DNA of 64,000 nt from Leptolyngbya sp. NIES-3755 (lineage in GTDB: Bacteria; Cyanobacteriota; Cyanobacteriia; Leptolyngbyales; Leptolyngbyaceae): NCBI GenBank assembly GCA_001548435.1, contig AP017308.1, forward strand, positions 629,030 through 693,029, written 5' to 3'. The position numbers and the translations under genes were made by a program. Positions 54,351 through 60,156 of this stretch are shown piece after piece. Below the pieces are notes generated by a model, which saw nothing but the letters and a program-made list of their open reading frames with translations, ran no database searches and was not told where the DNA came from. Numbering within the stretch: the stretch's first letter is position 1; every line of letters starts with the position of its first letter.

Positions 54351-54887
54351 ATGAACGATCAGCAGTTTTATGAGCTTTGTCGCGCCAACCCCGATCTGCG
54401 GATCGAGCGAAACGCTATTGGAGAAATTATCGTCCTGCCCCCAGCCTTTGCTGATGCTGGAAACCGAAATGGCAGAATTTTGGGGCAGCTTTTTAACTGG
54501 TCTGAAACAGATGGAACTGGAGAAGCCTTCGATCCGAGTTCAGGATTTACACTTCCTAATAATGCAATAAGGTCGCCCGATGCTGCTTGGATTCCGTCTA
54601 GTCGATGGAATGCCTTAACGCCAGAACAACAAGCTTCTTTTGCGCCAATCGTCCCAGATTTTGTTATTGAGTTATGCTCTAGCAGCGATACATTGACCAA
54701 TCTCAAAGAAAAGATGGAAGAATATATTGCGAATGGAGTACGGTTGGGATTGTTAATCGATCGCAAAAATCGGCAAGTTCATGTTTATCGACTCGATCGA
54801 GAGCCAAAAATTCTCGATAATCCTGAATCGGTAAGCTGTGATCCTGAATTGCCAATGTTTGCACTGAAGATGGCGAAAATTTGGTAA
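54351..54887 (+). CDS. Uma2 family PD-(D/E)XK protein
   Basis: 178 residues. The Uma2 fold is shown by 'RSPDAAWIPSSRW' (acidic metal site), 'VPDFVIELCS' and 'LKEKMEEYIANGVRLGLLIDR', the E-x-K-like core of this restriction-endonuclease-like family. Uma2 proteins are very numerous in cyanobacteria and of unknown role. A second, unrelated copy is at 55389-55982. Confidence 0.87.
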   Translation: MNDQQFYELCRANPDLRIERNAIGEIIVLPPAFADAGNRNGRILGQLFNWSETDGTGEAFDPSSGFTLPNNAIRSPDAAWIPSSRWNALTPEQQASFAPIVPDFVIELCSSSDTLTNLKEKMEEYIANGVRLGLLIDRKNRQVHVYRLDREPKILDNPESVSCDPELPMFALKMAKIW

Positions 54888-55388: not shown

Positions 55389-55982
55389 TCAACCAATCTC
55401 TATAATTTGATTCACAGTTAGGGTTAACTCAGGAAATGTACGAGAAAGAATACGATCGTCCCCCTTAAAGGCAGTGGATTGATAAACGCCTGACTCATCT
55501 AGTAAGTAGACGAATATCGTAGGTATTTTGGGATTGCCTAGATAGTTTCTGCTCCCGATCGCTAAATAATCCACAATCCAATATTCAGAAATTCCCAACC
55601 GTTGATATTCATCGAGTTTATCAACATAATCGTCTTCCCAATTGGTAGAAACTACTTCTACCGCTAATTGAATGGGTTTATCCAAAGCAGCATAGGCATT
55701 TCGTTCAGAGCGCCACGTTGCCTTGCTGATGACACTGACATCTGGTTTGCGTCCTCGATTTTCACCTGTTTGAATCACGGCGGTATTATTCACAACGTAA
55801 TCAAGCTGCGATCGTCTAATTTCATCATTGAAAGCAAACAGGATGAAGAAGTTAACATCATCGTGCTGCCGTGTCGCTCTCATCTCAACGATTTCTCCAT
55901 CGATCAGTTCATAGTTTGCATCTTCGGGATATTGATCAAGAAACTGATCAAAGGTGAGCTTTTGTTTAGTAGCGATCGTCAT
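55389..55982 (-). CDS. Uma2 family PD-(D/E)XK protein
   Basis: 197 residues from ATG 55982 (MTIATKQKL), with AGGAGGA 9 nt upstream. 'FDQFLDQYPEDANYELIDGEIVEM' in outline opens the fold; 'GRKPDVSVIS' and 'LAVEVVSTNWEDDYVDKLDEY' carry the acidic and Lys residues of the Uma2 site. Function unknown, as for the other copy. Only 76 bp separate it from the IscA-type gene. Confidence 0.87.
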   Translation of the reverse strand: MTIATKQKLTFDQFLDQYPEDANYELIDGEIVEMRATRQHDDVNFFILFAFNDEIRRSQLDYVVNNTAVIQTGENRGRKPDVSVISKATWRSERNAYAALDKPIQLAVEVVSTNWEDDYVDKLDEYQRLGISEYWIVDYLAIGSRNYLGNPKIPTIFVYLLDESGVYQSTAFKGDDRILSRTFPELTLTVNQIIEIG

Positions 55983-56157
55983 TGCAACAGTTCCTCCTGT
56001 TTCCAATCTCTCAATCATAAACCTGTCAGCAGTTCAGATGTACAATATGTGGAGTCAAAACATAAGTAGGAATACTGAGTTTCAAACGCCAATTTGACAG
56101 TAGTTTCGTTACATTTAATACTGCTCTTCCACACTCTACGACCCCCGATCGACACTC

Positions 56158-59100
56158 ATGACTCCATCCGATGCAGCCCGAATCGAACCGTTTATCGATC
56201 GTTGGCAAAATTCCAGCGGTAATGAACGTGCAAATTATCAAATGTTCTTTTCGGAACTCTGTGATGCGCTGGGAGTCTCGCGTCCTGATGTCAAAGGTAG
56301 CGTTCCAGGTGATCCTTACTGTTTTGATAAAGATATTACGATCTATCATCCCAGTGGGAAGAAGACAGCGGGATATATTGATGTCTACAAAGCAGAGCAT
56401 TTTTTGATCGAGGCGAAGCAGGGGAGCGATCGATCAAATAAAGGCACAGCAAAACGAGGAACGAATGCGTATCTCAAAGCAATGGAAGCGGCGTTTGTGC
56501 AAGCGATCGCCTATACGCGCAATCTCTCTAGTAAGCCTCCGTTTCTGTTGACTTGTGACATTGGCGATCACTTTGAGCTTTGGTTGGGATTTAATGGGGA
56601 TTACGGTGGATATGGGGCGCGGCGAGAGATTGCACTCACGGATCTGCGAAATGAAGAGACGTTTGATCTGTTCGTGGATATCTTTACTGACCCGCAGAAG
56701 CGCAACCCGGAAAAGATTGCGGCGAAGGTAACGCGAGAAGTGGCGGCGGATTTGGCGGAGTTGTCGAGGCGGCTGGAAGGAGTGCATGAGGCGCAAGAAG
56801 TGGCAGCGTTTCTGATGCGCTGTATCTTTACGATGTTTGCGGAAGATGTGGGGCTACTCAAAGAGCATTTGTTTACGCAGGCATTGGAGACGCGATGGAA
56901 GGCGAATCCGAAGAGTTTTCAGCCGGAAGTGGAAAGTCTCTGGCAGGCGATGAATGATGGCACAACGTTTGGGTTTTATGGTCGGTTGTTGCGGTTTAAT
57001 GGGGGATTGTTTGCGGAGGCGAAGGCGTTTGAGTTGGGCGAGAGCCAGCTTGAGGTGTTGCTCACGGCGGCAAAGCGGGAATGGAAAGAGGTGGAGCCTG
57101 CGATTTTTGGGACGTTGCTGGAGCGGGCGCTGGATTCGCGGGAGCGGAGTAAGTTGGGGGCGCATTATACCCCTCGATCGTATGTGGAACGGTTGGTGCG
57201 TCCGGTGGTGCTGGAGCCGCTGCGCGAACAGTGGGATTTGGTGCAGCTTGAAGTGAAGCAGGCTTTGAATAATGGGGAATTGGAGCCGACTGAGAAGCAG
57301 AAAAAGAAAGCGATCGACATTCTTGAGGCGTTTCTGAAGGAACTGCGGGAGGTTAAGATTCTCGATCCGGCGTGTGGGTCGGGGAATTTTTTGTATGTGA
57401 CGCTGGATTTGCTGAAGGGGCTTGAGTCGGAGGTGTTGAAGCGGCTTTCTGATGTGGTGGGTGGGGAGCAGTTGCGGATTGATGATTTTCAGGTGAATCC
57501 GTCACAGTTTTTAGGGATTGAGATTAATCCTCGTGCGGCAGCGATCGCGGATTTAGTGATCTGGATTGGGTATTTGCAGTGGCACTTTAAGCGGTTTGGG
57601 GATATTCCGCCTGTGGAGCCTGTGTTGCGCGAGTACAAGAATATTGAGTGTCGCGATGCGGTGCTGGCGTATGACGGGATGGAACCGGAGATTGATAAAG
57701 CGACGGGAGAGGTGCGAACTCGGTGGGGTGGTCGAATGATGAAAAGTCCGGTGACGGGGGAAGAAGTGCCAGATCCGAGCGATCGAATTCCGATTTATCG
57801 GTATTTGAATCCTCGTTCCGCAGAGTGGTTGCCCTCACCCCTAGCCCCTCTCCCGGAGGGCGAGGGGGACAAGAAAAATGCGGTTCGGCTCCCTTCTCCC
57901 CTAGGGAGAAGGGTTGGGGATGAGGGCATCGATCAGTTAGCGGGACGGACGAGACAGATTCCGGCAGTATTATTACAACGAGCAAGAGAACTGAGACAGC
58001 AGCAGACTCCAGCAGAACAATTATTGTGGGAATGCTTACGCAATCGGCAACTCTGTAATGCCAAGTTTCGCAGGCAACACAATTTGGGGCAGTTTATTGC
58101 TGATTTCTACTGTCATGAAGCTTTATTGGTGATTGAACTGGATGGCGGAATTCATGAACAGCAAAAACAAAGAGATGACGATCGCGATCAATGGATGCAA
58201 GCGCAGGGTTTTACAGTTTTGCGGTTTCAGAATGAAGAAGTTTTCAAAGACACAGAAATGGTTCTAGAGCAAATTGCTCGATGTTTGCCCTCACCCCTAG
58301 CCCCTCTCCCGGAGGGCGAGGGGGACAAGAAAAATGCGGTTCGGCTCCCTTCTCCCCCAGGGAGAAGGGTTGGGGATGAGGGCAAAGTCTACATCGTGAG
58401 TAATCCACCCTTTATCGGAAATGCCTGGATTCGTGAACGATTAGGAGATGGCTACGCTGAAGCGCTCCGTAGAGTCTACAAAGACGTGCCTGATACCGTT
58501 GATTTCGTGATGTACTGGTGGCATAAAGCCGCAGAACTCGCTCGCGAAAACCGGATTGTGAGATTCGGATTCATCACAACGAATAGCATTCATCAAGTTC
58601 GACAAAGGAAAGTAATCGAGTTCCATCAAAATCAGAAGAATCCGATTCAATTGATATTTGCGATCGCAGATCATCCCTGGGTAGATAAGGGGGCAGCAGT
58701 CAGAATTGCAATGACGATCGGGCAAAGTGATTCATCCAATGTTGTTCGAGTTCCCCAACTTGGGACTGTAATTCAAGAAATCAATGCAAGAACACCAGAA
58801 GACTCAGCAGAACAAGTTCACATTCAAGTTACTAATGCAAGTCAGATTTCTAGTGATTTAAAGGCAGATATAGCTCTCACTAGAAGCTATGCTTTACAAG
58901 CGAACTCTAAACTGTCAAGTCGTGGCATGGAGATGCGTGGCGCTGGCTTTCTCTTGACTGCAAAAGAAGCTGTAAGTGTAGGCTATGACGAAATTAATAG
59001 AACTCCGAAGGTCATCAAAAGATATTTGAATGGTAGAGACATAACAGATATCTCAAGAAACCTATACACGATCGACTTATTTGGTTTATCAATTCAGGAG

Positions 59101-60156
59101 ATTCAAGATCACTATCCAGAAATGTATCAATGGGTTTATGAAAGGGTGAAACCAGAGCGAGATGCCAATCGACGTAAGGCTTCCCGCGAAAAGTGGTGGG
59201 TATATGGTGAGGCAAGAGCAACCTTTAGACCGGCTTTAGCTAATCTAAAAAGATACATTGCGACAGTTGAGACAGCTAAACATCGCACATTCTTGTTTCT
59301 TGAAAATGATATTGTCCCAGACAATAAATTGGTTGTTATTGCCCTTGAAGATGCCTATTTTCTTGGAGTTCTTTCTAGCAAAATTCATATAATTTGGTCA
59401 CTTGCAGCAGGCGGAAGGCTAGGCTTCGGCAACGATCCTGTCTACGTAAAAACTCGTTGCTTCGATCCCTTCCCTTTCCCCGAAGCAACCGACGCGCAAA
59501 AGCAAACCATCCGTGACCTCGCAGAACGCCTCGACTCCCATCGCAAACGAGTCCAAGCCCAACATCCCGAAGTCACCATCACCGCAATGTACAACCTGCT
59601 AGAAAAGATTCGTGCAGGACAAGAACTCACAGACCTCGATCGAGCTTTCAACCAAAAAGCCCTCGTTTCCACCCTCAAACAAATCCACGACGATCTCGAT
59701 ACCGCCGTATTCGCCGCCTACAATTGGTCGCTCACCCTCACCGACGATCAAATCCTCGAAAACCTCGTCACCCTCAACGCCCAACGCGCCGAAGAAGAAC
59801 GCAACGGCTTCATTCGCTGGCTCCGCCCCGACTATCAAGCCCCCAACGAAACCCAAACCCAACAAACCCTCCAAGGCATCACCGACCCCGAAATCGAAAC
59901 AACGATTGCCCCGATCGAACAACAAAAACTCCCCAAAGCCTTCAAAGATCAACTCGCTGCTGTCCGCGATCTCCTCCGTACCCAAGGCGGCGAATGGTCG
60001 ATCGAGCAAATCACTGCCCAATTCAAAAACGCCACTCGCCAAAAACAAACCATTCTCACCTGTCTTGAGAGCTTAGAAGCCTTGGGAATTGTGGCTCGAC
60101 ATGGAGAAGAGAATAGCGATCGATGGTATTTCGCAGAATTGCAAAAGGTGAGCTAA
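56158..60156 (+). CDS. MmeI-like restriction-modification enzyme with inserted DUF559 nuclease domain
   Basis: A 1332-residue bifunctional enzyme. The N-terminal nuclease core (1-100) has Asp75 and Glu85-Ala-Lys87 ('YIDVYKAEHFLIEAKQ'), a PD-(D/E)XK site as in MmeI. A helical spacer follows, then the N6-adenine methyltransferase with motif I DPACGSGNF (403-411) and motif IV NPPF (749-752). The TRD-like and C-terminal helical parts end the protein. Residues 558-742 are a foreign in-frame block with a DUF559 domain between two repeats; without it the length would be about 1147, near the family norm. Base composition changes sharply within the gene. No separate R, S or M partner is adjacent; it is a one-gene R-M system (type IIL-like). 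Confidence 0.85.
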   Translation: MTPSDAARIEPFIDRWQNSSGNERANYQMFFSELCDALGVSRPDVKGSVPGDPYCFDKDITIYHPSGKKTAGYIDVYKAEHFLIEAKQGSDRSNKGTAKRGTNAYLKAMEAAFVQAIAYTRNLSSKPPFLLTCDIGDHFELWLGFNGDYGGYGARREIALTDLRNEETFDLFVDIFTDPQKRNPEKIAAKVTREVAADLAELSRRLEGVHEAQEVAAFLMRCIFTMFAEDVGLLKEHLFTQALETRWKANPKSFQPEVESLWQAMNDGTTFGFYGRLLRFNGGLFAEAKAFELGESQLEVLLTAAKREWKEVEPAIFGTLLERALDSRERSKLGAHYTPRSYVERLVRPVVLEPLREQWDLVQLEVKQALNNGELEPTEKQKKKAIDILEAFLKELREVKILDPACGSGNFLYVTLDLLKGLESEVLKRLSDVVGGEQLRIDDFQVNPSQFLGIEINPRAAAIADLVIWIGYLQWHFKRFGDIPPVEPVLREYKNIECRDAVLAYDGMEPEIDKATGEVRTRWGGRMMKSPVTGEEVPDPSDRIPIYRYLNPRSAEWLPSPLAPLPEGEGDKKNAVRLPSPLGRRVGDEGIDQLAGRTRQIPAVLLQRARELRQQQTPAEQLLWECLRNRQLCNAKFRRQHNLGQFIADFYCHEALLVIELDGGIHEQQKQRDDDRDQWMQAQGFTVLRFQNEEVFKDTEMVLEQIARCLPSPLAPLPEGEGDKKNAVRLPSPPGRRVGDEGKVYIVSNPPFIGNAWIRERLGDGYAEALRRVYKDVPDTVDFVMYWWHKAAELARENRIVRFGFITTNSIHQVRQRKVIEFHQNQKNPIQLIFAIADHPWVDKGAAVRIAMTIGQSDSSNVVRVPQLGTVIQEINARTPEDSAEQVHIQVTNASQISSDLKADIALTRSYALQANSKLSSRGMEMRGAGFLLTAKEAVSVGYDEINRTPKVIKRYLNGRDITDISRNLYTIDLFGLSIQEIQDHYPEMYQWVYERVKPERDANRRKASREKWWVYGEARATFRPALANLKRYIATVETAKHRTFLFLENDIVPDNKLVVIALEDAYFLGVLSSKIHIIWSLAAGGRLGFGNDPVYVKTRCFDPFPFPEATDAQKQTIRDLAERLDSHRKRVQAQHPEVTITAMYNLLEKIRAGQELTDLDRAFNQKALVSTLKQIHDDLDTAVFAAYNWSLTLTDDQILENLVTLNAQRAEEERNGFIRWLRPDYQAPNETQTQQTLQGITDPEIETTIAPIEQQKLPKAFKDQLAAVRDLLRTQGGEWSIEQITAQFKNATRQKQTILTCLESLEALGIVARHGEENSDRWYFAELQKVS
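57831..57927 (+). repeat. 97-bp GC-rich repeat, copy 1
   Basis: Begins GCCCTCACCCCTAGCCCC and ends GTTGGGGATGAGGGC. The two 24-bp ends are imperfect inverted repeats of each other (20 of 24 positions pair). An internal GGGAGAAGGG/CCCTTCTCCC hairpin adds structure. It is read here as LPSPLAPLPEGEGDKK...GRRVGDEG. Identical to copy 2 except one base near its centre (CTAGGGAG versus CCAGGGAG). Confidence 0.92.
58287..58383 (+). repeat. 97-bp GC-rich repeat, copy 2
   Basis: Direct copy of 57831-57927 with 96 of 97 bases the same, in the same reading frame. The single change turns Leu to Pro in the encoded SPLGRR/SPPGRR segment. Confidence 0.92.

Follow-up and report, generated by a model that had tools for sequence, protein, structure and literature searches.

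We found that a restriction–modification (R-M) gene in the window (the whole 64,000-nucleotide stretch of Leptolyngbya sp. NIES-3755 DNA analysed here) carries an in-frame, repeat-bounded insert encoding a DUF559 nuclease domain, and that long reading frames with this nuclease are R-M genes at 95 of the 95 loci examined, which were drawn from the best matches listed in one search and from the best 80 of 117 relatives in another. The reading we favor, and consider somewhat probable, is that the insert is a palindrome-bounded, REPIN-like mobile element that carries a nuclease and that R-M enzymes retain as an additional nuclease domain.

The host open reading frame (ORF) matched MmeI_N, MmeI_hel, MmeI_Mtase, and MmeI_TRD in Pfam, all above cut-off; that is, it has the N-terminal, helical spacer, methyltransferase, and target-recognition domains by which MmeI-like type IIG enzymes are recognized. 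PADLOC called it REase_MTase_IIG (1414 bits), and the solved MmeI structure 5hr4 matched it with E 5.9e-39. DUF559 (PF04480) scored 129.9 bits in the same ORF (E 4.7e-38) against a curated cut-off of 20.6. The cassette lies between methyltransferase motif I and the NPPF motif, directly ahead of NPPF, and runs from a 99-nt palindromic repeat through the DUF559 domain to a second copy of the repeat (Table 1). Aligned as direct repeats, 57826–57928 and 58282–58384 are 98% identical across 103 nt. The outer ends of the cassette are inverted with respect to each other, and each repeat copy also has inverted ends together with two inner hairpins; folded as single-stranded DNA, the copies gave z scores of -3.56 and -3.55, with 0 of 200 shuffles folding equally well. 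Terminal inverted repeats, a hallmark of DDE-type insertion sequences and MITEs, are present. A larger model that folded host and cassette together was of low quality (pLDDT 57.6).

Table 1. Features of the host gene and the inserted cassette, in positions of the window.
Feature	Position	Strand	Description
Host gene, MmeI-like type IIG R-M enzyme	56158..60156	+	1332 aa counting the insert; ORF, Pfam, and PADLOC
Inserted cassette	57829..58383	+	555 nt = 185 codons; in frame; orthologues L183, L184, L186, L188, L189, and L190 uninterrupted there
Left palindromic repeat	57829..57927	+	99 nt; codes for LPSPLAPLPEGEGDKKNAVRLPSPLGRRVGDEG
Left terminal inverted repeat	57829..57841	+	TTGCCCTCACCCC; start-type motif recurs left of the nuclease at other loci
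DUF559/Vsr-like nuclease domain	57973..58287	+	residues 606-710; Pfam, AF2 model, fold matches, invariant E, D, E, H
Right palindromic repeat	58285..58383	+	99 nt; one base unlike the left copy
Right terminal inverted repeat	58373..58385	+	GGGATGAGGGCAA; end-type motif recurs right of the nuclease at other loci

An earlier, sequence-only reading of this DNA had described direct repeats with inverted ends around a nuclease and an insert that adds a whole number of codons, in frame, to an MmeI-like enzyme. Both descriptions are confirmed; its coordinates for the insert, 57831–58383, were right at the end and two bases late at the start. It had also held that the insert lacks a start signal of its own, and we agree: the cassette has no obvious start because the first in-frame ATG (58195) lies deep in the nuclease domain, though the left repeat opens with TTG. 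Its exclusion of an intein holds as well, with no intein domain among the Pfam matches of the ORF (E 0.001), no splicing or Hint domain in Pfam, and an insert that starts Leu-Pro and ends Glu-Gly. We likewise reject an intron: none occurred among the Rfam matches (E 0.1), where the single match was mir-4716, on the hairpin and far under its gathering score. Two putative DUF820/Uma2-like nuclease ORFs lie near the restriction gene, at 54351–54887 (+) and 55389–56018 (−).

We searched 42 genomes of the family for the flanks joined without the insert, and eight genomes matched. Two are occupied, the window's own (G000) and G251. Five (G282, G062, G115, G204, and G177) carry an empty site, with a match that spans the junction at 58–72% identity. 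In the eighth (G258), the junction search matched the right flank alone, and the orthologue also runs through without the insert. As an example, one orthologue reads ...NPRPAEWQEADYIVSNPPFIG where the window reads ...NPRSAEW, the insert, and then KVYIVSNPPFIG. Because orthologues carry an empty site, the insert in the window is, on sequence comparison, derived. The sequence-only reading had proposed that uninterrupted MmeI-like homologues be aligned to find such a site, and had named two outcomes that would speak against it, namely an insert in all homologues and the lack of any other copy of the repeat, or of DUF559 with repeats; neither was found, as five orthologues are empty and many copies occur elsewhere.

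We surveyed the genes that host the nuclease with a PF04480 search of 388 genomes of the class, 216 of which gave a match, and took hosts from the best matches listed. Among these matches, 57 besides that of the window lay in frames of at least 279 aa, and with the window the 58 ORFs fell into ten groups by host sequence. A Pfam scan of 15 fetched ORFs plus the window, with the remaining hosts assigned by sequence cluster, gave MmeI, Type ISP, Eco57I/TaqI_C, HsdR, HsdS, and DUF1156 hosts. One 279-aa ORF with DUF559 alone and no host domain (L099) was left out; of the 57 ORFs of at least 300 aa then remaining among the matches listed, window included, 57 were R-M genes. From a wider scan of genome contigs for relatives of the R-M-hosted copies we took the best 80 of 117: 18 were duplicates of class loci and were dropped, 24 lay in frames shorter than 300 aa, and 38 were further long ORFs. 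All 38 of the latter, within the best 80, had R-M domains by Pfam tally (overlapping counts: N6_Mtase 19, HsdR 14, Type_ISP_C 3, Methylase_S 2, and DUF1156 1). Overall, the hosts are of MmeI, Eco57I, type ISP, HsdR, HsdM, HsdS, and DUF1156 type; a repeat search added two DUF559 hosts outside the 95, one MmeI (L301) and one DUF1156 (L305). Phyla with in-frame R-M hosts are Cyanobacteriota, Verrucomicrobiota, Kiritimatiellota, Planctomycetota, Nitrospirota, Acidobacteriota, Chloroflexota, Caldifarciminota, Pseudomonadota, and Bacteroidota, and single placements may be wrong because many host sequences are metagenome bins.

Counted by eye on printed translations rather than by alignment, the insertion sites number about 25, and by eye they often fall in loops adjoining conserved motifs: ahead of NPPF, before or after methylase motif I, ahead of the HsdR Walker A or DEAH motifs, and between HsdS recognition domains. 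Some host genes are disrupted by stops or frameshifts (G089 and G007). On plasmids of Synechocystis sp. B12 (L307 and L308), the annotation gives DUF559 a gene of its own, next to a PglX gene on one plasmid and next to a short DUF1156 gene on the other, and these loci look like broken host genes. Where the cassette sits in HsdM or HsdS, a clear HsdR was present at 4 of 21 loci; none was clear at the other 17 (one weak match). Many of these 17 stretches end early, yet HsdR is missing from six that extend over about 10 kb as well. Because a clear HsdR is retained at the four type I loci, the DUF559 domain looks, from their gene content, additional to it there; replacement of HsdR by the nuclease is not supported at these loci and is possible at the other 17. 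A phage homing nuclease was considered and rejected, with two weak matches (E 1e-6) in 50,697 phage records. Two of 72,556 plasmid records held a relative of the window domain at E 1e-20, and a composed query matched 34 plasmid records at E 1e-15, with no identity higher than 60%.

Beyond the window, too, the repeat and the nuclease show a strong association. We scored a repeat motif on both sides of the nuclease domain, within 260 bp, against control windows 1.1 kb away, using a pattern composed after the first loci had been seen. Both sides had the motif at 41 of 57 class long loci (controls 4 of 107), 33 of 38 further long loci (controls 1 of 66), and 20 of 24 loci in frames shorter than 300 aa (controls 2 of 43). 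At stand-alone loci, which mostly belong to another clade, the figure was 4 of 16 (controls 0 of 29). The sequence-only reading was thus right to see a derived unit, to expect repeat and nuclease together elsewhere, and to regard the repeats as tolerated linkers, since they are read through in frame as linker-coding sequence; what it missed is that, at the loci examined, the gene-resident nuclease form is confined to R-M genes and the bare repeats are not. At 14 of the 95 long loci, no repeat motif of the window type was found on either side, and 12 of these are in the MmeI_b group. Cassettes of this group (L082–L100) lie directly ahead of NPPF and, by eye, carry another repeat, coding for example for SPPFKEGLG and SPSLKGGGQE, which suggests that DUF559 is accompanied by at least two repeat families.

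At 32 long-frame loci, the nuclease lies between the halves of one repeat, with the start motif a median of 76 bp before the domain and the end motif a median of 40 bp after it. The second common layout, that of the window, places the nuclease between two whole repeats, and mixed forms exist. The left repeat end is read in all three phases, varying by host. Among 111 whole repeats, duplications of 2–9 nt at the target site never exceeded the highest of 50 shuffles; with no target-site duplication in this set, we reject DDE-type transposition of the insertion sequence or MITE kind. Genome-wide repeat counts were not correlated with the nuclease: the reversed control pattern fits the repeat shifted by one base, and its counts equal or exceed those of the repeat pattern in many genomes. 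Such a correlation would also be circular because the cassettes themselves contain the repeat.

The repeats also occur in genes without the nuclease. We searched 388 and 194 genomes with repeat-coded peptides and kept frames of at least 400 aa that had no stops and no DUF559. Four such frames are in R-M hosts (L223, L224, and L226 in MmeI; L225 in Eco57I) and 17 cyanobacterial loci are in other genes (L288–L306 minus L301 and L305), namely UvrD, a WD40 STAND protein, NERD, CobB, MnmE, PriA, MutL, CheA, and Mfd, with nine loci scanned by Pfam and eight named by likeness to the nine. Three more come from the genome of the window: L009, a histidine kinase; L012, a methyltransferase-glycosyltransferase protein; and L016, an 824-aa frame that carries a partial repeat and gave no match in Pfam. 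Repeat-only frames therefore lie in non-R-M genes at 20 of 24 loci and in R-M genes at 4 of 24, a count that leaves aside five other repeat-only frames (about 780 aa) and repeat-bearing frames with internal stops. Comparing R-M with other hosts for the nuclease form (95:0) and the repeat-only form (4:20), Fisher's test gave p 4e-19 by locus and p 5e-4 by gene family (7:0 versus 2:11); the loci are not independent, each orthologue being counted on its own and the repeat-only set coming mostly from one cyanobacterial family. Because bare repeats are mostly in ordinary genes, it is the form with the nuclease that shows the preference for R-M hosts. Two of the repeat-only R-M genes are of separate note. 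L226 (1941–4109, + strand, G074) is an MmeI-like gene without a target-recognition domain that has one repeat where two known sites would join, likely the product of a repeat-mediated deletion. L225 (1877–6682, − strand, G158 contig C4) is a 1602-aa Eco57I-like gene with several in-frame repeat-only stretches and no DUF559.

Three sites occur both with the cassette and with solo or tandem repeats lacking the nuclease. The MmeI site after VHVSIVNW is occupied by a solo repeat in G288 and by the cassette in G089, G257, G155, and G053 (a shorter ORF); the MmeI site ahead of the helical domain has two tandem repeats in G155 and the cassette at L076 and L080; and an Eco57I site carries the cassette at L095 and L096 and a single repeat without it in G158. 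Type ISP genes are found occupied (split) and uninterrupted in one family and even in one genome (G130, G144). For the Walker A site of HsdR, the window's order gave 22 matches, of which 21 cross the junction without a break and one covers a single side. Three cassettes outside R-M frames (L137, L138, and L140) lie in one Vasconcelosia minhoensis genome; the L137 protein is 86–89% identical to the other two, which suggests multiplication within that genome.

We modeled the nuclease domain with AF2 (80 sequences, pLDDT 86). The model matched 3HRL, another DUF559 protein (Foldseek E 3.2e-8; VIA Z 16.2), after which the closest solved folds were the I-Bth0305I catalytic domain (Foldseek E 2.5e-4, prob 1.00; VIA Z 12.4, rmsd 2.4, 92 residues) and Vsr (VIA Z 9.5). 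The claim of the sequence-only reading that this is no homing endonuclease of a known class is not supported, the nearest folds beyond DUF559 being those of the EDxHD enzyme I-Bth0305I and Vsr. Alignment positions E27, D56, E67, and H73 are invariant in 80 of 80 domains and are the putative catalytic residues. The dN/dS ratios indicate purifying selection on the nuclease domain, at 0.05–0.18 in 16 of 17 measurable pairs, with one exception (L056/L062, 0.44); the set comprised 24 pairs, from which seven saturated ones, including both window pairs, were dropped. On a tree of 136 domains (rows with stops or shorter than 85 aa dropped), which has few columns and many open forks and is poorly resolved, the host type changed 29 times, against a minimum of 11 and a shuffled mean of 88, so that host labels are clustered yet switched. 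One clade with 100% support combines Eco57I and DUF1156 hosts, and 40 rows of the tree fall outside R-M frames, so the nuclease lives outside R-M genes too.

We propose that an element with a Vsr/EDxHD-type nuclease, open from end to end, would fit genes in frame with no sign of splicing and would add to its host a nuclease domain carried on repeat-coded linkers. Because whole repeats are without target-site duplication, we postulate a REPIN-like spread, through a single-strand route or recombination between repeats. Solo repeats could be derivatives of, or landing sites for, the full form, the two interconverting through the repeats. In R-M enzymes, the nuclease would be tethered to a machine that recognises DNA and is coupled to methylation, and there it may be safe and useful, additional rather than replacing; elsewhere in genes the full form would be harmful or useless and would be purged. 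Among genes, only those of R-M enzymes would thus retain the full form, since these enzymes would tether and control a methylation-sensitive nuclease. We infer both the movement of the element and the activity of its nuclease from sequence patterns. In Caulobacter, cells that lack a solitary cytosine methylase show an SOS response for which a DUF559 protein is needed (PMC12907096), which lends indirect support to retention in R-M enzymes.

The main rival to the element model is a homing endonuclease gene without intron or intein, which would cut uninterrupted R-M alleles, or the repeat within them, so that repair of the break would install a copy of the cassette; R-M genes would then be its target or simply the most frequent travellers between genomes. 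We regard this as unlikely, while recognizing that it accounts for several observations. The fold is nearest to I-Bth0305I after another DUF559 protein, and a DUF559 gene has been placed in the EDxHD homing family (PMC9403480). Type ISP genes with and without the insert are found side by side, in G130 and G144 within a single genome, and distant phyla have the same sites occupied, often beside conserved motifs (both by eye); these points favor homing. Against it, the roughly 25 unrelated sites (by eye) have no obvious common target, the cassette has no space for the long DNA-binding region of EDxHD homing enzymes described in PMC3943268, stand-alone copies occur outside R-M genes, and bare repeats enter other genes as well. 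An improbable alternative is that the repeats have their own means of inserting or recombining and the nuclease is carried along passively, tolerated in dispensable R-M genes. Repeats alone in frame in many genes, the likely repeat-mediated loss in L226, and broken hosts (G089, G007, and perhaps the Synechocystis B12 plasmids) are all compatible with such a passenger; purifying selection on the nuclease and its invariant catalytic-type residues argue against it, and tolerance alone leaves 95 of 95 R-M hosts unexplained when bare repeats are in 11 other families. Finally, the nuclease might be an ordinary domain that the enzyme has had from the start, joined by low-complexity linkers, or the insert might be an error of assembly. 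This would fit the insertion site common to G000 and G251 but is very hard to credit, since empty sites (in five orthologues of the window MmeI, in type ISP, and in HsdR) contradict an ancestral domain as a general explanation, the same nuclease sits in unrelated enzymes at many sites, and the layout is repeated in assemblies from many organisms.

Returning to the palindrome-bounded element, we suggest more tentatively that it represents a novel class of mobile element whose entire length is an ORF, with palindromic ends that double as linkers and a homing-type nuclease as cargo, a plug-in domain repeatedly installed in R-M enzymes across about ten phyla as a second nuclease without splicing. 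In the literature searched, which was mostly open-access and excluded preprints, we came across no description of DUF559 cassettes bounded by repeats, of R-M genes that had received them, or of a mobile element of this kind. If the proposal is true, restriction enzymes acquire nuclease domains through an element that acts much as a transposon for domains would, and enzymes would have a way to evolve that is separate from inteins, introns, and the usual fusion of genes. Part of a large domain family whose function is unknown would gain a role, the PSPLAPLPxGEG-type stretches in many bacterial proteins would be accounted for, and how selfish homing nucleases turn into defence parts would become directly testable.

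The cassette shares features with several known systems. Rickettsia palindromic elements (RPEs) are palindromic and lie in frame inside protein genes, as the cassette repeats do; to our knowledge they carry no enzyme, unlike the DUF559 cassette. The in-frame repeats without the nuclease in cyanobacterial genes (UvrD, MutL, and others) are RPE-like. Inteins with homing nucleases are likewise nuclease-bearing in-frame insertions, but Pfam showed no splicing domain in the cassette, and translation of the frame as it stands would leave the linkers in the protein. With EDxHD homing endonucleases (I-Bth0305I) and Vsr the cassette has its catalytic fold in common; it differs from the EDxHD enzymes in that no group I intron (Rfam, E 0.1) or intein (Pfam, E 0.001) was found, in that it has no extended DNA-binding region, and in its palindromic repeat bounds. 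Stand-alone DUF559/Vsr-like genes (Caulobacter VsrA, 3HRL) are of the same domain family but have no fusion to an R-M enzyme; VsrA is functionally linked to a DNA methylase (PMC12907096). The comparison with REPIN/RAYT systems drawn by the sequence-only reading fits as a likeness. According to PMC3116915, those systems have an inverted palindromic doublet that folds as single-stranded DNA, dispersed short copies, and association with a nuclease gene; the window has such a hairpin-forming doublet, and there is no target-site duplication here. The cassette departs from REPIN/RAYT in that the gene enclosed by the window repeats encodes DUF559 with a Vsr-type fold rather than a tyrosine transposase, and in that many DUF559-linked repeat copies lie inside genes, in reading frame.
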